In this document: positions 11,178 through 25,234 of the stretch, piece after piece
Layout: each line of letters starts with the position of its first letter
Position numbering within the stretch: position 1 is the first letter of the stretch
IMG/VR virus record: IMGVR_UViG_3300030098_001436
Span: 1-25,761 of that record
Source of the DNA: a virus
DNA: 25,761 nt
Reading direction: 5' to 3' (one strand)
The notes under the pieces: generated by a model
The model's input: the letters and a program-made list of their open reading frames with translations, nothing else
The model's database searches: none
Told to the model about the DNA's origin: nothing
Made by a program: the position numbers and the translations under genes

Positions 11178-11813
11178 ATGTGGGCTTATGTAAAGGATAA
11201 CAAGATAGAGGAGATAATAGCTAGACCCAAAGATATGGTCATAGATGATATTAGACATTCTCGAAGAATATTTACTGCATGGACTTGGGATGAATTAAAT
11301 GCCATAGGTATTTACACAGTAGAACCAGGAACACAAGGTGATGATAGGTTTGAAATTACAAGTCAACCTACATACACTTTTAGTAGTTCTGGTAAAAAAA
11401 TTACTACTAAATATACCACAACTGATAAAGCATTAGATGATGCAGAAGCTAAAGATAAGGATGGTAAAAATATATTAGACCTTGATGGCAACAAAGTAAT
11501 TAATTATGGATTAAAAACAATAGCTAAAAATCAATGTAAAATTACTGCTAATGGATTAATAGCTAGATTTAATTGGTTAGTAGAAAGAAGTATTTATGAT
11601 AGTAGCAAAGCCATTCCTGATGCAGTAAAAACATATGTTGCAGCTATTAGAAAAGACTGTGATGATATTGAAACTGCAATTACTAATGCTAGTGATATGA
11701 ATGCTTTCAAAGCTTTGTATACAGATGAACTAAATAGTGATGGTACAGTAAAAACTGTAAATAGAATAAATAGGTGGACAAGTGATAGCACAGTTGAAGA
11801 GTATATTAGGTAA
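11178..11813 (+). CDS. Fibre-associated (tail-fibre assembly-like) protein of unknown function
   Basis: This 211-residue protein begins MWAYVKDNKIEEIIARPKDMVIDDIRHS and then has FTAWTWDELNAIGIYTVE. I recognise this opening from proteins that follow fibre genes in marine phages. The middle has a central DAEAKDKDGKNILDLDG segment. The C-terminal half (about 115-205) is helical with evenly spaced Trp and acidic residues, like the DUF4376-type tails of fibre-assembly proteins. There is no membrane segment and no enzyme motif. It could be a chaperone for fibre trimerisation or a minor virion part; position is the main argument. A perfect ribosome binding site suggests it is translated strongly. 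Its 3' end overlaps a small AT-hook gene by 32 bases. Confidence 0.55.
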   Translation: MWAYVKDNKIEEIIARPKDMVIDDIRHSRRIFTAWTWDELNAIGIYTVEPGTQGDDRFEITSQPTYTFSSSGKKITTKYTTTDKALDDAEAKDKDGKNILDLDGNKVINYGLKTIAKNQCKITANGLIARFNWLVERSIYDSSKAIPDAVKTYVAAIRKDCDDIETAITNASDMNAFKALYTDELNSDGTVKTVNRINRWTSDSTVEEYIR

Positions 11814-11892
11814 AATAAAACAGAGACTATTTGGTAAACTTTGTGAGTGTAAGCCTAAGAAAAAAAGAGGCAGACCGAGAAAGAGTGGTTAG
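11782..11892 (+). CDS. 36-residue AT-hook microprotein
   Basis: This short frame runs from GTG 11782 to TAG 11890-11892 and fills what would otherwise be a gap between two genes. The product has an amphipathic basic N-terminus (LKSILGKIKQRLFGKL), a CEC pair of cysteines, and the tail KPKKKRGRPRKSG. RGRP flanked by Lys/Arg is the core of the AT-hook, which inserts into the minor groove of AT-rich DNA. AGGTGG at 11772-11777 lies four bases before GTG, a short but workable spacing; TTG 11794 is an alternative start. It overlaps the upstream gene by 32 bases and ends two bases before the next start. A DNA-binding or condensing role is inferred from the motif alone; the CEC site could also bind a metal. 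Confidence 0.6.
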   Translation: MIAQLKSILGKIKQRLFGKLCECKPKKKRGRPRKSG

Positions 11893-11894
11893 TT

Positions 11895-14171
11895 GTGCCT
11901 TTAAAAAAGATACCTTTTAAACCAGGGGTTAACAGAGAAACCACATCTTATGCTAACGAATTTGGTTGGTTTAATTCTGATTTAATACGATTTAGAAAAG
12001 GTCGTCCTGAAAAAATGGGAGGGTGGTCTCGATTAAGCAGTAATAACTATGATGGCACTGGTAGATCGTTACACGTTTGGGCGGCTTTAGATGGTTCTAA
12101 ATTTATGGGTTTAGGAACCGAGGCAAAATTTTACATCGAGCAAGGTGGTGGATACAATGATATTACTCCCATTCGATCTACCGTTACTTTAGGAGCCAAT
12201 CCATTTTATACTGGTAGTGCAGGAACAAGTACTTTAACTGTTACACACGCAAGTCACGGAGCCGTTGTAAATGATTATGTTACTTATAGTGGAGCGACCG
12301 CTGTGGATGGAATAACTGCCGCACAAATAAATAAAGAACATCAAATTACACAAGTCATAGATGCAAATTCTTATGTAATAACTACGACAGGAAGTGCGTC
12401 CTCTGGTTCTACCGCAGGAGGTGGTTCTTCTGTATTGGCTCAATATCAAATTAATACAGGTTTAGGAACGGTTGTTTCAGGTACAGGTTGGGGCGCAGGT
12501 TTTTGGGGTGGTACTGCCTCCACTTACTCTGCAACCACATTATCTACAGGCATTAATAACTCTGTTACCTCTATACCTTTAACTAGTGCTTCTGATTTTG
12601 AAACTGCATCTACTACATTAAGTTCTGATTTAGATGTGTATAGTACAAGTATTACAGTAGCAGACGCCTCTTCTTTTCCATCAAAAGGCACTATAAAAAT
12701 AAACAGTGAGTTTATACGATACGCAACAAAAACAGGAAATACATTTGGTTCTTTAACAAGAGCTTCTGATGGCTCTACCATAGCGGCACATAGTAGCACC
12801 GATACGGTTACTTTTGTAGGATTAATATTAATAGAAGATGAGTTAATTTTATACACAGGTAAATCTACAAATACGCTTGATGCAGGAGTTGCTCGAGGAG
12901 CAAGAGGCACAACTGCTGTAGCACATAGTAGTGGCGTATCTGTAAAAGAAGCAAATGATTTTATTGGATGGGGTGAAGGATCTTTAACTTCTGCATCTAC
13001 TGGTCAAAATATACGTTTATGGTCTCAAGATAACTGGGGTGAAGATTTAATATTTAATGTGTTTGACGGTACACCATATTATTGGGATAAAACACTTGGT
13101 ACTTCTACACGAGGTTCTAGTTTAGCTTCTCAAGCAGGAGCATCTGATTGTCCTACAATTGTAAGAAAGATTATGGTATCTCCTTCTGATAGACATGTTA
13201 TTGCTTTAGCGTCTAACCCTCGAGGAGAAACACAACAAGATTTGTTACAAGTTCGTTGGTCTGATCAAGAAAACCCATTTGACTGGACACCTACTGCTAC
13301 TAACACCGCAGGTGGTCAAAGAATATCTTCTGGTTCAGAAATTATTACAGCAAGAAAAACAAGGCAAGAAATATTAATATTAACAGATGCTAACTTACAC
13401 GCTATGCGTTTTGTAGGGCCACCATTTACTTTTAGTTTTACATTGCTTGCAGGCAATGTTTCTATTGTAGGGCCAAACGCTATTACAACTGTAGGAGATA
13501 GAGTGTTTTGGATGGATAGAGAAAATTTTTATGCATACACTGGTAAGTTACAAGTTATACCTTGTACTGTATTGCGTTATGTTTTTGATGATATTAACCT
13601 ACAACAAAGTTTTAAATTTTTTGCTGCATCAAACAGAATGTTTGATGAGGTATTTTGGTTTTATGTATCTGGTGACTCAACAGAAATAGATCGTTATGTA
13701 AAATATAACTACACAGAAAATACTTGGGATATTGGCACTATGGTAAGAACAGCTTGGGTTGATTATGGGATACACGATAACCCTAGAGCCGCAGGTTCTT
13801 TGAACGGAACACAATATATATACACGCACGAAACAGGAAATAATGATGACGGGTCAGCTATGACAAGTTTTATAGAATCTGCGGATTTTGATTTAGGTGA
13901 TGGTAATGAATTTATGTTTGTAAATAGATTAATACCAGATGTATCGTTAAATAACTCTGATGCATCTGTTCAATATATTATTAAGACTAGAAACTTTCCT
14001 GGTCAAAGTTTAACAACAAACTCTACAAATATTGTTACCTCTACTACCGATCAATCTTTTTTGCGAGCTAGAACAAGACAAGCAGTAGTTCGAGTAGAAA
14101 GTAATACCACAGATGTTGCGTGGACACTTGGAGATTTACGATTAGATATTAGAAAAGATGGGAGAAGATAA
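11895..14171 (+). CDS. Tail nozzle/packaged-DNA stabilisation-like structural protein
   Basis: This is a 758-residue protein with a GTG start. The N-terminus MPLKKIPFKPGVNRETTSYANEFGWFNSDLIRFRKGRPEKMGGW and the later RLWSQDNWGEDL, YYWDKTLG, VRWSDQENPFDWTP, TRQEILILTD, RVFWMDRENFYAYTG and FWFYVSGDSTEIDRYVKYNYTENTW belong to a family I know from many marine phage genomes. Repeated four-strand blades with W/Y-rich turns suggest a beta-propeller, as in phage nozzle or stabilisation proteins (compare P22 gp10). That link is by inferred fold, not by clear sequence identity. Residues 214-350 hold an inserted beta module that is itself nested. Arg codons CGA/CGT are frequent here, unlike the first 9 kb. 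The gene opens the second structural block and is followed by an overlapping 55-residue gene. Confidence 0.55.
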   Translation: MPLKKIPFKPGVNRETTSYANEFGWFNSDLIRFRKGRPEKMGGWSRLSSNNYDGTGRSLHVWAALDGSKFMGLGTEAKFYIEQGGGYNDITPIRSTVTLGANPFYTGSAGTSTLTVTHASHGAVVNDYVTYSGATAVDGITAAQINKEHQITQVIDANSYVITTTGSASSGSTAGGGSSVLAQYQINTGLGTVVSGTGWGAGFWGGTASTYSATTLSTGINNSVTSIPLTSASDFETASTTLSSDLDVYSTSITVADASSFPSKGTIKINSEFIRYATKTGNTFGSLTRASDGSTIAAHSSTDTVTFVGLILIEDELILYTGKSTNTLDAGVARGARGTTAVAHSSGVSVKEANDFIGWGEGSLTSASTGQNIRLWSQDNWGEDLIFNVFDGTPYYWDKTLGTSTRGSSLASQAGASDCPTIVRKIMVSPSDRHVIALASNPRGETQQDLLQVRWSDQENPFDWTPTATNTAGGQRISSGSEIITARKTRQEILILTDANLHAMRFVGPPFTFSFTLLAGNVSIVGPNAITTVGDRVFWMDRENFYAYTGKLQVIPCTVLRYVFDDINLQQSFKFFAASNRMFDEVFWFYVSGDSTEIDRYVKYNYTENTWDIGTMVRTAWVDYGIHDNPRAAGSLNGTQYIYTHETGNNDDGSAMTSFIESADFDLGDGNEFMFVNRLIPDVSLNNSDASVQYIIKTRNFPGQSLTTNSTNIVTSTTDQSFLRARTRQAVVRVESNTTDVAWTLGDLRLDIRKDGRR
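12534..12944 (+). repeat. Nested protein-module duplication inside the nozzle-like gene
   Basis: Residues 214-235 (TTLSTGINNSVTSIPLTSASDF) look like the first half of a module. Residues 240-305 are a complete module that starts TTLSSDLDVYSTSITVADAS and goes on through GTIKINSEFIRYATKTGNT to AAHSSTDTV. Residues 306-350 look like the second half of another copy (GLILIEDELILYTGKSTNTL ... RGTTAVAHSSGVSV). The order is half A, whole A-B, half B. Confidence 0.7.
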
Positions 14172-14338
14172 TGGCTAAATTGTTAGAACAAAGTTTTGCA
14201 GATGCTCCAGATGAGTATGATGTAATAACATTTCAAAGAATATTACGAGATATAGAGACTGCTTTGACTAAAAAAGAGTTTCCTCAAGAAGTAGAAAGCC
14301 TAGATGGATCTAGGTCAGTTTCTTGGTTTATGAGTTAA
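14171..14338 (+). CDS. 55-residue conserved-looking small protein, unknown function
   Basis: The ATG overlaps the preceding stop as TAATG, with GGGAGA at 14160-14165 five bases upstream. The frame runs 55 codons to TAA 14336-14338. The product starts MAKLLEQSFADAPDEYDV, has a helix with alternating charge (FQRILRDIETALTKKEF), and ends SRSVSWFMS. It has no membrane segment or Cys. It exactly fills the space between the nozzle-like gene and the 106-residue gene, and the stop-start overlap implies coupled translation. A short helical protein in this place could be a minor tail or connector part, but I cannot name a family. Confidence 0.65.
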   Translation: MAKLLEQSFADAPDEYDVITFQRILRDIETALTKKEFPQEVESLDGSRSVSWFMS

Positions 14339-14341
14339 ATT

Positions 14342-14662
14342 ATGGCAAATTCGTTTCAAAATGTAGCAACAGTAGTGTCAGGGACATCAGATACCACAAT
14401 ATATACATGCCCTACTGCTACACAATCTATTGTAAAAAATATAAATTTGTATAATAATCATAGTGGAACAGTAGATGTTATTGTAAGCATACGAGATAGC
14501 TCTGCTTCTACAACAGTCATTATAGATAAAAGTACTATGGCTGCCGCTGGAGAAACGTCCCTCACTGCTCCGTTTGTTTTAGAGGAAAGTGATACGCTCA
14601 TATTAAATTGTGCAACAGGAAGTGTAATTAATGCATTTCTAAGTATTTTGGAGATTTCATAA
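14342..14662 (+). CDS. 106-residue all-beta small virion protein (putative)
   Basis: The sequence MANSFQNVATVVSGTSDTTIYTCPTATQSIV alternates hydrophobic and polar residues almost throughout, ending SVINAFLSILEIS. That is the signature of a single beta-sandwich with no helix, membrane span or enzyme motif. It starts three bases after the previous stop, has no clear Shine-Dalgarno sequence, and overlaps the next gene by one base (TAATG). Such proteins are common between tail genes in marine phages. A decoration or tail-accessory role is possible but unproven. Confidence 0.55.
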   Translation: MANSFQNVATVVSGTSDTTIYTCPTATQSIVKNINLYNNHSGTVDVIVSIRDSSASTTVIIDKSTMAAAGETSLTAPFVLEESDTLILNCATGSVINAFLSILEIS

Positions 14663-22400: not shown

Positions 22401-22775
22401 GCTATTTTATTTTTAGGCAAAGCTTTACGAACAGAAACAGTTTTAAAATCTTTAACCCAAACTAGATTGTCATCTAGAGAATTAAAAAGAGCAAGAGAAT
22501 TAGGTGCAGGTTTAGATGATTTAAGTATAAGAAATATGCAGATAAAAGAGTTTATAAACCAAAACGCAAGAAAATATTCAACATTAAGTTTAACTGATAC
22601 AGGAGGATCTGGAGCAGAAGCAATAGGCAGAGAACTTGTAACACCTGCAACAGAAGCTATACAAAGTGAATTAGAAGAAAGTGATATACAAATACCAACC
22701 AAAAACCAAATCGTTAATCAAGCAAGTAACGCACTTAAACAAGTAGAACAAGACAAATTACTAGGAATAAACTAA
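19416..22775 (+). CDS. Very large ejection-type protein with N- and C-terminal membrane-active segments
   Basis: This 1119-residue protein starts at GTG 19416, overlapping the stop of the gene before (TAGTG); only a weak AGG lies upstream. It opens TKIRTPSGTILDFGDKDRETI. Residues 168-198 (PLIATTAASLAFTGFGILPSMAIMGVAGATG) and 229-246 (IFMALGEGFFRGLFAGAR) are hydrophobic and Gly-rich. The centre is a long charged helical body. A further hydrophobic stretch lies near 965-1005 (LAPAAFIAGAGLRAITAPIS). The layout of membrane-active ends around a helical body resembles the gp16-like protein at 2727-6668, although I see no clear shared motif. The inferred role is membrane penetration during genome delivery. 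No transglycosylase motif was found. Confidence 0.5.
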   Translation: MTKIRTPSGTILDFGDKDRETIKNAINSLREKRPQLFEQAEFDYKSATLEDIQERAKQRNVFAGTETATSDSKEKDLVTNDGEIQSHAFQYFYGKADNDKGREMRLTQEFGDGTFQKLGTNDYMLLLDNISTEKKRQYNLPEEGTIRVNKKGFSRYDLSRFGGEYRGPLIATTAASLAFTGFGILPSMAIMGVAGATGKAYDELVSEEYFEDLQDQPTNEIYGDIAKEGIFMALGEGFFRGLFAGARRLIKGPGPKPNEARVDELIDLGSSPREARKIATEEARFDMRTAIKEGARPNINEASGKAFLGRMQAIYEAIIPNRGAAVANRNYVKKVFDEFNAGNLSETELKQTLKAQADDVSSIIANDMKDPNKAFKQAQGRLNDVIKKELDELDNIVTKGVPNETQASFFETLYEGASKLWKTDSDALFRNAESLIGTGKRGKIDALPGLVKLIEDLQKDVFKRADKSANLFDSPIMVELRKKIGFVKDPKKAGVFVHDPSKQKAFTIKEINSLRQALRSLSKDPSVAPGILDNDIGRVIEQINKSIEAKQVQLGLDLAEATAKKDIIGIEKVQRGFDALRQANEYYAEGAKTFLNSNVKTFLRKVKEKEVVDLNFAMDTFKRQPGQLDNFLQTITPDQTEVLSLSKIPSSVFNELASYSKRGDFINFNKLVKEKKLAKFIPMFDERLDQLPKDLDYVKYLGKQVGDQMDTYATLSTRKADPSAFINGVKEKIANNEMKNLLTAGIGRQKDTFDFSSFSGEFKKNREFYKKVFDKDTFNSLENIMNDSFVVGQATLKDLSPLGNLTLKSTRSMVEDIQNNLNSIIADSSDDLFKALSSGKVDNLETITTGLLKNPESYQKLINKLRQTGDQGKRAADAMEGFVSPEGVYQPGIKDYVMQKVLSAGFPDGISADLVQSGKFADPILKNIDTMNQAGALDTIIGKEQIRLLREALKNTVKMSDQSFKGQAGLAPAAFIAGAGLRAITAPISFLGEVSAILFLGKALRTETVLKSLTQTRLSSRELKRARELGAGLDDLSIRNMQIKEFINQNARKYSTLSLTDTGGSGAEAIGRELVTPATEAIQSELEESDIQIPTKNQIVNQASNALKQVEQDKLLGIN

Positions 22776-23011
22776 TGCAAATAGATCCAATGTTAATGTG
22801 GAACGTTATCATAACCGTGGTTCTTGGGCCATTTGCATGGGCATTTAGTAAAATGTTTAATGAAGTAAAACGTTTACAGATCTTGTTAAATAGAACAAGA
22901 GAAGATTACGCAACAAAATCAGAACTTCACAATGAAACGAAAGAGATAAAGGAATTAGTGATTCGCATAGAGCAAAAGCTAGATCGTTTTATTGAGAAGC
23001 AAAATGGTTGA
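22775..23011 (+). CDS. 78-residue membrane-anchored coiled-coil protein
   Basis: It starts in a TAATG overlap. Residues 7-24 (LMWNVIITVVLGPFAWAF) form one membrane span. The rest (FNEVKRLQILLNRTREDYATKSELHNETKEIKELVIRIEQKL) is a heptad-like coiled coil. Similar one-span proteins with a TREDYATK-type segment occur in marine phages. The shape would fit an inner-membrane spanin subunit, a holin regulator or a virion membrane-contact protein. With no lipoprotein partner visible, I cannot choose. It overlaps the next gene by eight bases. Confidence 0.55.
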   Translation: MQIDPMLMWNVIITVVLGPFAWAFSKMFNEVKRLQILLNRTREDYATKSELHNETKEIKELVIRIEQKLDRFIEKQNG

Positions 23012-23633
23012 ACCAATATCCACAGCGCTCGCTGGTATAGCATTAGTTAAAAAAAGTGTAGATTTTGTTAAACAACAAATACAAACTTGCAATGACATAG
23101 GCGATATTATTGGTCATATCGATAAAGCTATGACTGGTGAACAACAAGTTATTAAAGCTAGAGACAGTAAAAAAGTTGACCATTTTGCTGTAGAAAATGT
23201 GGCCCAAGAAGTGATAGATGCTAAATTAGCTCGTGAACAAATGAACGAACTACGTAACTTGGTTAATCTTCGTTTTGGTCCTGGCACTTGGGAGTTTATC
23301 TTACAAGAGCGTAAGAAACGTATTGATGCAAAAAAACAAGCAATTAGAGAAGCAAAAGCAAAAAAGTTAAAACAACAAAAAGAAATGTACGAAATGATAC
23401 GAATGGGTTTTATAGTATTAGCAGTGATAAGTTTTATAGCAGTGGCTATAGGTATTACAGTAAAAATTGTTTTAGCTCACTCGCTTTTAGAGGGAGATGA
23501 AAAATCGTGTATGTTGTATGAGCCTAAATATTTTATGATATGTATGAATGAAGGCAGAGGTTATGCAGACACAGAATTATACTTAGATTATAAAAGAGAA
23601 AAAGAAAATTGGATAATAATAGAAGGAGACTGA
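23004..23633 (+). CDS. 209-residue single-span membrane protein, unknown function
   Basis: I start it at ATG 23004, after GAGAAG at 22994-22999, not at TTG 22992. The N-terminus MVEPISTALAGIALVKKSVDF and the segment AREQMNELRNLVNLRFGPGTWEFILQERKKRI are familiar from many marine phage genomes. Residues 105-130 are a strongly basic helix, followed by one membrane span at 133-158 (IRMGFIVLAVISFIAVAIG). The last 50 residues hold SCMLYEPKYFMICMN, with two Cys eleven residues apart that could form a disulfide in the periplasm. The positive-inside rule puts the N-terminus in the cytoplasm. It lies among lysis-type genes and may act in membrane disruption, but this is inference. Confidence 0.55.
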   Translation: MVEPISTALAGIALVKKSVDFVKQQIQTCNDIGDIIGHIDKAMTGEQQVIKARDSKKVDHFAVENVAQEVIDAKLAREQMNELRNLVNLRFGPGTWEFILQERKKRIDAKKQAIREAKAKKLKQQKEMYEMIRMGFIVLAVISFIAVAIGITVKIVLAHSLLEGDEKSCMLYEPKYFMICMNEGRGYADTELYLDYKREKENWIIIEGD

Positions 23634-23634
23634 T

Positions 23635-23835
23635 ATGAAACCAGAAAACTTAGATAAGTGGCGTATATGGCCAAGACTGCTAATAAGCTTATATGGTCTA
23701 GCTTTCTTTAGAGTTACAGAATGGTTTATGCAACTTGAAGACCCAACCAATGCACAATCTGCTTTTGTAAGTGTTTTAGTAGGAGCAGGTGCCGCTTGGT
23801 TTGGTTTGTATTGTGGGTCTGGTAAAAAAGAATAA
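23635..23835 (+). CDS. Putative holin, 66 residues, two membrane segments
   Basis: The ATG follows the previous stop TGA (23631-23633) by one base, with AAGGAG at 23623-23628 six bases upstream. The protein has WRIWPRLLISLYGLAFFRVTEWFM and QSAFVSVLVGAGAAWFGLYCGS as two membrane segments separated by a short polar loop (QLEDPTNA), and a Lys-Lys-Glu tail. Small size, two spans, a charged end and position before an endolysin fit a class II holin, which makes the inner-membrane hole that lets a cytoplasmic endolysin out. As I recall, proteins with this RIWPRL...WFM pattern are frequent in marine phages. Confidence 0.6.
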   Translation: MKPENLDKWRIWPRLLISLYGLAFFRVTEWFMQLEDPTNAQSAFVSVLVGAGAAWFGLYCGSGKKE

Positions 23836-23885
23836 AGTGTGTTATCTTATGGGATGTCATATTTGATGTCCAACATCCCACACTT
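23835..23885 (+). promoter_or_regulatory. Bipartite hairpin around a start codon
   Basis: AAGTGTG (23835-23841) pairs with CACACTT (23879-23885), and GGATGT (23852-23857) pairs with ACATCC (23873-23878). Ten unpaired bases bulge on the left arm. ATG 23866 lies in the 15-base loop, and the alternative GTG 23839 lies in the outer stem. There is no T-run, so it is not an intrinsic terminator. It may control translation of the gene that starts here. Confidence 0.5.
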
Positions 23886-24516
23886 CAAAGCGTGGGTTAG
23901 AAAAGAGTTTACACACAATCACATAAAATATCACGGTGAGTATTTGCACGCTTTGGTTATAGCGGTAACTACTATCCCTGATCGATGTTTATCTTTTCAA
24001 GTAGTATTTACAGGTATTGATGAAGAAGAAAATGTTCACGGTGGAGCAATGTGGGCACGTATGCCGATTACTAGTTTGATTGCCGATGAAGTGTTAGATG
24101 AGATGCCAGAGCGTATGGATACACACTTAGCACAACCTTGGGACTGCTCATCAAGAGGTCATTCTATTATTGTTATGGATAGAATAAGCTCTAGTCCTTG
24201 GTTTTGTAAAATAGGTGGTGAGTTTTATAAAGGCAGATATATGTTTACAGTAGACTATACAGATAGCTATATCTCAGATGATCCTGCACAACATAAGCAG
24301 AGTCACGTACTACAACTTATTGACTCAGGTAAATGGACTGGTAATATAGTAGCATTACCTAATAACAGAGTTAGGGTAACAAATCCTGCTTTGTGGACAA
24401 CAGGCGAAGGGGCACCAGATTTTAGACCTAGCCAATATATTCACACCGCAGAAATACACGATAGTTACACTGATTCTGAGGTGACGTTTAATAACCTATA
24501 TAATAAGGAGAAGTGA
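23866..24516 (+). CDS. Conserved marine-phage protein of unknown function (NIPHFKAWVRKE family)
   Basis: I start it at ATG 23866, which gives MSNIPHFKAWVRKEFTHNH and 216 residues, because relatives I remember begin close to NIPHF. GTG 23839 and ATG 23854 are in-frame alternatives. Motifs include a VHGGAMWARMPI strand, a LAQPWDCSSRGHSIIVMDR segment, and GEFYKGRYMFTVDYTDSYISDDPAQHKQSHVLQLIDSGKW with NNRVRVTNPALW near the end. It looks like a compact alpha-beta soluble protein with no signal or membrane span. The role is unknown; a virion component is plausible given its neighbours. No standard Shine-Dalgarno sequence precedes it, and a hairpin surrounds the start. Confidence 0.6.
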   Translation: MSNIPHFKAWVRKEFTHNHIKYHGEYLHALVIAVTTIPDRCLSFQVVFTGIDEEENVHGGAMWARMPITSLIADEVLDEMPERMDTHLAQPWDCSSRGHSIIVMDRISSSPWFCKIGGEFYKGRYMFTVDYTDSYISDDPAQHKQSHVLQLIDSGKWTGNIVALPNNRVRVTNPALWTTGEGAPDFRPSQYIHTAEIHDSYTDSEVTFNNLYNKEK

Positions 24517-24735
24517 ATGCCCGGAAGAAAAATGAGTAAGTATATGGCCAAAGGAGGCAAGTATATGTCTAAAATGGCTAAAGGTGGTAAGTATATGTCC
24601 AAGATGGCTAAAGGCGGTAAATATATGTCTAAGATGGCTAAGGGCGGTGTAAAGAAAACAGGTAAAACTATGACCGTTGCACAGATCAGAGCTGCTGCAA
24701 ATAAAAAAGGTTATAAACTAGTGAAGAAGTCATAA
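24517..24735 (+). CDS. Small basic repeat protein (KGGKYMSKMA repeats)
   Basis: This 72-residue protein begins right after the previous stop, with AAGGAG at 24505-24510 six bases upstream. It opens MPGRKMSKYMA and carries three 10-residue repeats KGGKYMSKMA at 12-41 plus a partial KGG. The C-terminus TMTVAQIRAAANKKGYKLVKKS looks like a small folded helix-turn element that I have seen in other marine phage proteins. About one residue in three is Lys or Arg, with very few acidic residues, so it should bind nucleic acid or membranes. It heads a run of three basic proteins. The repeats also place strong ribosome-binding-like DNA before in-frame ATGs. Confidence 0.65.
   Translation: MPGRKMSKYMAKGGKYMSKMAKGGKYMSKMAKGGKYMSKMAKGGVKKTGKTMTVAQIRAAANKKGYKLVKKS
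24550..24648 (+). repeat. Three 30-bp tandem repeats encoding KGGKYMSKMA, each with an SD-like/ATG cassette
   Basis: Units lie at 24550-24579, 24580-24609 and 24610-24639, plus a 9-base remnant. Bases differ at wobble positions (GGA GGC, GGT GGT, GGC GGT) while the peptide is unchanged. In the first unit AAGGAGG (24551-24557) stands seven bases before in-frame ATG 24565. Confidence 0.85.
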
Positions 24736-24932
24736 TGCCTCCTAAAAAAAAAACCACTACACGAAAGAAAAAAACTACCAAGAAAAAAGGAGCAAAGCCA
24801 ACTAATCCTGCGTTATATGCAAGGGTTAAGGCAGAGGCAAAAAGAAAGTTTGCAGTTTATCCCTCCGCTTATGCAAATGCTTGGTTAGTTCGTACGTACA
24901 AAAAACGTGGTGGTGGATACAGGACTGCATAA
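24735..24932 (+). CDS. Small basic protein with YPSAYANAW motif
   Basis: This 65-residue protein starts in a TAATG overlap. A Lys/Arg/Thr tail (MPPKKKTTTRKKKTTKKKGA) precedes a short conserved core, KPTNPALYARVKAEAKRKF then AVYPSAYANAWLVRTYKKRGGGYR. I recognise the YPSAYANAW...YKKRGGG core from phages and large algal viruses, where its function is unknown (a DUF5872-like family; the family number is from memory). The highly basic tail suggests nucleic-acid binding, perhaps packaging with the genome. It lies between two other basic proteins. Confidence 0.65.
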   Translation: MPPKKKTTTRKKKTTKKKGAKPTNPALYARVKAEAKRKFAVYPSAYANAWLVRTYKKRGGGYRTA

Positions 24933-25234
24933 TGGCTAAACCTACAGGTGGTCTTACAGCGTGGTTTGGGAAAGGTCCCAAAGGCGACTGGGTAGATATA
25001 GGAGCACCTAAGAAAAAAGGCAAGTTTCAGGCTTGTGGTAGAAAGTCAGCTAAAAAAAGTAAACGCAAATATCCTAAATGCGTTCCAAGAGCTACTGCTC
25101 AACGTATGACCAAATCTCAAATAACAAGTGCTGTAAAACGAAAAAGAGCCGCAGGCAATCCTGGTAAGAAACCGACAAATGTAAAAACATTTGCTAAAAG
25201 AAAAACAAGGAGAAAAAGTGTCAAAAGAGCTTAA
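24932..25234 (+). CDS. Small basic protein with RKYPKCVP motif
   Basis: I start it at ATG 24932 (TAATG overlap) with AGGA at 24921-24924 seven bases upstream; the in-frame codon at 24881 would run deep into the previous gene. The 100-residue product has GPKGDWVDIGAPKKKGKF, then QACGRKSAKKSKRKYPKCVP, TAVKRKRAAGN-type basic sequence and a Lys/Arg-rich end. The WVDIGAPKK...CGRK..RKYPKCVP core is, as I recall, shared by many phages and large DNA viruses of algae. Two Cys (35 and 50) could bind metal or form a disulfide. The charge suggests DNA binding; the function is not known to me. Confidence 0.65.
   Translation: MAKPTGGLTAWFGKGPKGDWVDIGAPKKKGKFQACGRKSAKKSKRKYPKCVPRATAQRMTKSQITSAVKRKRAAGNPGKKPTNVKTFAKRKTRRKSVKRA
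25207..25212 (+). promoter_or_regulatory. Shine-Dalgarno site that fixes the endolysin start
   Basis: AAGGAG lies five bases before GTG 25218, inside the 3' end of the basic-protein gene. It supports GTG 25218 over the upstream in-frame TTG 25191. Confidence 0.8.

Follow-up and report, generated by a model that had tools for sequence, protein, structure and literature searches.

The question raised by this locus is whether a 36-codon frame, lying between two larger genes of an uncultured marine bacteriophage, is a gene at all and, if so, what a protein of that size with a basic, AT-hook-like end might do. The window, i.e. the whole stretch of DNA analysed, is a virus record of 25,761 bases, which is probably a fragment and has a G+C content of 33%. 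The peptide encoded by the frame, as read from the sequence, is MIAQLKSILGKIKQRLFGKLCECKPKKKRGRPRKSG. The frame, its parts and its neighbours are as follows.

11178–11813, plus strand: upstream gene of 211 aa (MWAY family), the end of the tail-fibre cassette, overlapping the microprotein gene by 32 nt
11772–11777, plus strand: AGGTGG, a Shine-Dalgarno-like sequence 4 nt before the GTG, its AGGT core 6 nt before
11782–11892, plus strand: gene of the 36-aa microprotein, GTG start, TAG stop; frame conserved, as judged also by dN/dS
11785–11832, plus strand: predicted basic helix, residues 2–17 (AlphaFold2 on A2, block pLDDT 83 and 75)
11842–11850, plus strand: Cys21-x-Cys23 pair, both cysteines invariant in 50 variants
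11857–11883, plus strand: KKKRGRPRK AT-hook, G30-R31-P32 invariant, with Pfam and PDB matches
11895–14171, plus strand: downstream gene of 758 aa, GTG start, phrog_3287 virion structural protein

The first 32 nt of the microprotein gene are shared with the end of the 211-aa gene, and at its other end 2 nt separate the stop codon from the GTG of the 758-aa gene. The microprotein gene is preceded by genes of the tail fibre (T7-type fibre N-terminus, LamG, DUF7483) and then the 211-aa gene, whose family recurs as the closing gene of fibre cassettes. Several named-phage homologues of the 758-aa neighbour are annotated as 'phage stabilization protein' (a P22-type "stabilization" homologue), and its best matches among named phages include DSL-LC04 (38.6%) and Pelagibacter phage HTVC023P (33%). 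An earlier note on this DNA had reported the position, strand and length of the frame, its KKKRGRPRK end and its CEC pair, all of which proved exact when the sequence was re-read. It had also placed the frame in the only apparent gap, which is not exact; gaps between larger frames occur at 14171–14342, 22775–22992, 23633–23839 and 24516–24881 as well. The first of these, after the stabilization gene, contains a 55-aa frame (14171–14338) that is found at the same position in many relatives.

Viral contigs were searched with the 758-aa neighbour, which yielded 80 loci. The microprotein is intact in the same slot in 35 of the 80, including all 17 loci with at least 85% identity to that neighbour. 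Its GTG start is replaced by ATG at the same codon in two loci (L015 and L017), the start stands 16 codons before an invariant Phe in about four-fifths of the family variants, and a Shine-Dalgarno-like sequence precedes most of them. Coding DNA was also scanned with the pattern FGKLCxCKPKK, from which the tail is absent; the scan returned 66 contigs, and in 66 of 66 the frame runs on to [KR]GRP, with a stop within a few codons after it. Over 50 aligned variants, F17, G18, C21, C23, K28, G30-R31-P32 and K34 never vary, and the linker preceding GRP changes through insertions and deletions (KK, KKK, KKRG, KKKSK, KKKKG). The earlier note had expected a spurious gene to be broken by stops in close relatives, or to lose GRP while the surrounding DNA was kept. 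Neither was observed, and the tail and the cysteine pair, which it had proposed following through related phages, are invariant.

The dN/dS ratio outside the overlap, also proposed there, indicates purifying selection. It was calculated only from codons lying outside the overlap or left unfixed by the search pattern, and amounts to 0.07 (bootstrap 0.01–0.14) for loci found only via the neighbouring gene, at non-overlap codons; the three sets gave 0.07 (0.01–0.14), 0.10 (0.03–0.21) and 0.17 (0.08–0.27). The codon table of the peptide-selected loci was set aside as evidence of selection, because those loci had been picked by the microprotein peptide itself. The frame is short, as an open frame arising by chance between two genes would be, but the same peptide occurs in unrelated gene contexts and its start is kept as GTG or ATG; on the dN/dS values of 0.07–0.17 chance was rejected, and its probability is negligible. 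The 36-codon frame is a real gene under purifying selection.

Two genomic homes were found for the gene. In the first, it closes the tail-fibre cassette, often beside a holin and an endolysin gene, and is followed by the stabilization gene, or by a PF11351 holin and then the stabilization gene; other downstream sets are two small proteins plus a holin–lysozyme cassette, or a membrane protein (MVEP) plus a holin. The second home has the terminase large-subunit gene on one side and a putative portal region on the other, and one of the terminases concerned is 74% identical to that of HTVC023P. Of 30 records tested, the longest of 59.5 kb, 28 contained exactly one copy and the other two none. A further 30 records, nearly all chosen for a slot without the microprotein and including HTVC023P, contained no copy, and a six-frame search of the whole HTVC023P genome did not find it. 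As this terminase relative does without the microprotein, the gene is dispensable or replaceable. Its single copy, its two homes and its absence from some records look like one replaceable function exercised in two places.

Two neighbouring genes were observed in the course of these comparisons. The gene between terminase and microprotein (L196:11502–12278, L171:2771–2977) ranges from 68 to 258 aa with its ends kept (start LRI.MSSSKNKPK, end KKKNKGGLLV[TS]PKLAKRGF), as if its middle had been deleted or inserted as a block. In some more distant relatives (L064, L065, L068 and L073), the slot before the stabilization gene holds another small frame, MAKVKDVEAKLNTHEAVCAERWKETIERIKRLELVMITGAGSLILLMAGMLWKI, with a coiled coil and a TM segment, XhlA-like by eye.

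The microgene is often a meeting point of exchanged modules, i.e. a mosaic junction. DNA identities upstream of the gene, within it and downstream of it were 87/92/53% for L163 versus L123, 55/78/98% for L015 versus L163 and 58/81/98% for L123 versus L134. It might therefore be supposed that the gene is a homology linker, a short conserved gene at module borders that lets fibre cassettes swap by recombination and has little function as a protein; similarity to one side does stop repeatedly at the microprotein (L163 versus L123; L015 versus L163). A linker alone, however, predicts conserved DNA, and the reverse is seen: synonymous sites differ freely (pS about 0.4–0.55) and amino acids do not. 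Because synonymous sites vary freely, position at a mosaic border is not the reason for the conservation of the microprotein. A pure recombination linker was rejected on dN/dS, is largely refuted as the sole explanation and is very improbable; a linker role can still be a side effect.

The plan of the family is a basic helix, a CxC pair and one C-terminal AT-hook. AlphaFold2 predicts a helix over residues 2–17 and an extended tail (mean pLDDT 73). Net charge across the family is +10 to +17 on 34–39 residues. A textbook AT-hook has a GRP core with basic flanking residues (PMC11354804), and a GRP core flanked by K/R was found in 50 variants. The Pfam AT_hook model (PF02178) matches 21 of 50 members at E<=1, with a best E value of 0.0032; the window copy, at 13.7 bits, falls below the curated cut-off of 17.4. 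A PDB profile search gave weak matches only; all of them fall on tails of the KRGRP type in chromatin or DNA-binding proteins (GLYR1, TFIIIC tau91, ELYS, ORC2). There was no credible match for the microprotein in PHROGs, and none that was convincing between its FG-x-x-C-x-C part and a known domain in Pfam, PHROGs or PDB. The description 'hidden AT-hook microprotein gene', given in the earlier note, holds as a description, since the gene is conserved, under purifying selection and absent from PHROGs. Judged from its sequence, the tail would bind DNA in the minor groove.

The reading favoured here, with a probability of about 0.5, is that a late-module microprotein tethers or condenses AT-rich DNA via its C-terminal AT-hook. 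The single hook would grip the DNA, and the N-terminal basic helix, with the CxC pair, would hold on to another copy of the microprotein, a partner protein or the inner membrane; AT-rich DNA would thereby be tethered or condensed late in infection. The target might be the genome of the phage itself, around the time of packaging, or the nucleoid of the host. This DNA-binding reading is favoured because of the invariant GRP, the AT-rich genomes and the terminase–portal home. The 66 contigs that all keep GRP were chosen without reference to it, and the linker beside it is variable. AT-hooks prefer AT-rich DNA. The order terminase, microprotein, portal is that of a packaging module, and the motif is otherwise rare at the 80 neighbour-found loci, occurring elsewhere in only two frames, of 17–20 aa. 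A working precedent is WhiB7, a small bacterial protein with a single C-terminal AT-hook (PMC10245118). Isolated AT-hook peptides of 5–11 residues have low affinity (PMC11354804), and a single hook alone may likewise bind weakly. Against DNA binding count the first home, which adjoins tail-fibre and lysis genes and no DNA genes, the score of the window copy and the lack of the gene in HTVC023P. A tail-protein partner, another role that the earlier note had offered, is weakened by the terminase–portal home of the family, which is not near tail genes. A 117-aa very basic protein encoded at 24881–25234 in the window, beside the lysozyme gene (phrog_23735, of unknown function), is a separate candidate DNA-binding protein.

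The main rival to the DNA-binding reading is a cationic lysis peptide of the disruptin type. It would be produced late in the cytoplasm and released by the holin, and would disrupt the outer membrane instead of a spanin; lipopolysaccharide or phosphate would be bound by its basic tail, and the look of an AT-hook would be incidental. Disruptins are already known as cationic peptides, and how spanin-less phages accomplish the outer-membrane step has been called an open question (PMC12819732). The high charge on so short a protein with a basic helix would suit such a peptide, as would a hydrophobic moment above that of shuffled sequences (p<0.1) in 24 of 52 variants; in the window copy, however, the moment exceeds the shuffle mean without significance (p 0.18), and in the FGAR subgroup amphipathicity is absent relative to shuffles. 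In several arrangements the microprotein lies in or just before a holin–endolysin cassette (PF11351 holin, Phage_lysozyme), and in L121 and L154 it directly abuts the holin. Lysis neighbours are present in many, not all, of the lineages with the microprotein, and the terminase–portal home is no lysis locus. A local examination around the lysis genes of six relatives revealed no frame for a lipoprotein o-spanin, which makes a lysis role more credible than it would otherwise be; the cassettes nevertheless include a gene of 78–82 aa, encoding a TM segment and a coiled coil, that could be a spanin. Invariant GRP and CxC are not expected in a generic amphipathic peptide, and there is no resemblance by eye to the disruptin gp28 of phage phiKT. 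Taken together, a lysis peptide is considered unlikely, if a little less so than the regulator discussed below.

Two further genes near the lysis genes are recorded here. The 78–82 aa gene (L134:7121–7369, L158:8427–8675, L124:1671–1907) encodes an N-terminal TM segment and a coiled coil (M.IDPMMMWNIIITVVLGPFAWAFSKMF...) and is a candidate i-spanin, u-spanin or antiholin. The MVEP family membrane protein (22992–23633 in the window) has a TM segment at about residue 160, followed by two conserved Cys, and is encoded next to lysis genes in many relatives; the family had no Pfam match, and one relative was without a named-phage match.

The invariant CxC pair is left unexplained by both the DNA-binding and the lysis-peptide readings. 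FG-x-x-C-x-C is as invariant as GRP, and it is therefore likely that the microprotein does something specific besides contacting DNA. The microprotein might instead act as a regulator or inhibitor of a protein of the host or the phage, such as RNA polymerase, terminase or a fibre-assembly partner, its CxC pair binding metal or forming a disulfide and its basic tail contacting RNA or protein. A single-copy, positionally mobile gene would fit such a role, but two Cys alone provide at most half a metal site, and the domain searches in Pfam, PHROGs and PDB gave it no convincing match; a regulator is rated improbable.

Known systems resemble the microprotein in part. AT-hook proteins (PF02178; HMGA type) share the GRP core with K/R flanks and the AT-rich DNA background, whereas the microprotein is a stand-alone phage protein of 34–39 aa with one putative hook, a helix and CxC. 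WhiB7 of actinobacteria is likewise small and Cys-containing, with a single C-terminal RGRP AT-hook (PMC10245118), but an iron-sulfur cluster and binding to sigma-A characterise Wbl proteins; the microprotein has only two conserved Cys and no Pfam match to Wbl families. H-NS and Lsr2 have an AT-hook-like Q/RGR motif, an AT-rich target and an oligomerising N-terminus with C-terminal DNA binding (PMC6936261). The microprotein differs in having a GRP hook at its end and no folded DNA-binding domain, and Pfam and PDB profile searches gave no sequence match to H-NS/Lsr2. Disruptins (phiKT gp28) are also short basic phage peptides, helical as the microprotein is predicted to be, and encoded near holin and endolysin as it is in many lineages; the microprotein differs from them in its invariant GRP and CxC and in its second home between terminase and portal.

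The microprotein represents a family that is new, lacks annotation and belongs to uncultured marine phages. A tblastn search of named phages with the window peptide and one relative gave no match, and blastn gave no real match to the gene; this is weak evidence of absence, as queries of such basic composition may be masked by the low-complexity filter. The microprotein was also unmatched in 50,697 phage records. When bacterial and archaeal genomes were searched with a loose pattern, the matches listed and inspected were chance-like frames, none of them in the family. Some lineages are related to the SAR11 phage HTVC023P via terminase or stabilization genes.

A 36-codon gene that is absent from PHROGs is thus common to several marine phage lineages. 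More speculatively, and with a low probability, a widespread family of proteins of about 36 residues might serve viruses as DNA-to-membrane (or DNA-to-capsid) tethers, in which a basic amphipathic helix would anchor at the membrane or packaging machine, CxC would link copies and the AT-hook would grip AT-rich DNA. If so, unrelated lineages of marine phages would share such tethers and hand them on to one another at module borders. The family lends itself to testing whether minimal AT-hook proteins are at work on the AT-rich genomes of phages, and how the outer membrane is broken where a phage has no spanin that can be recognised.
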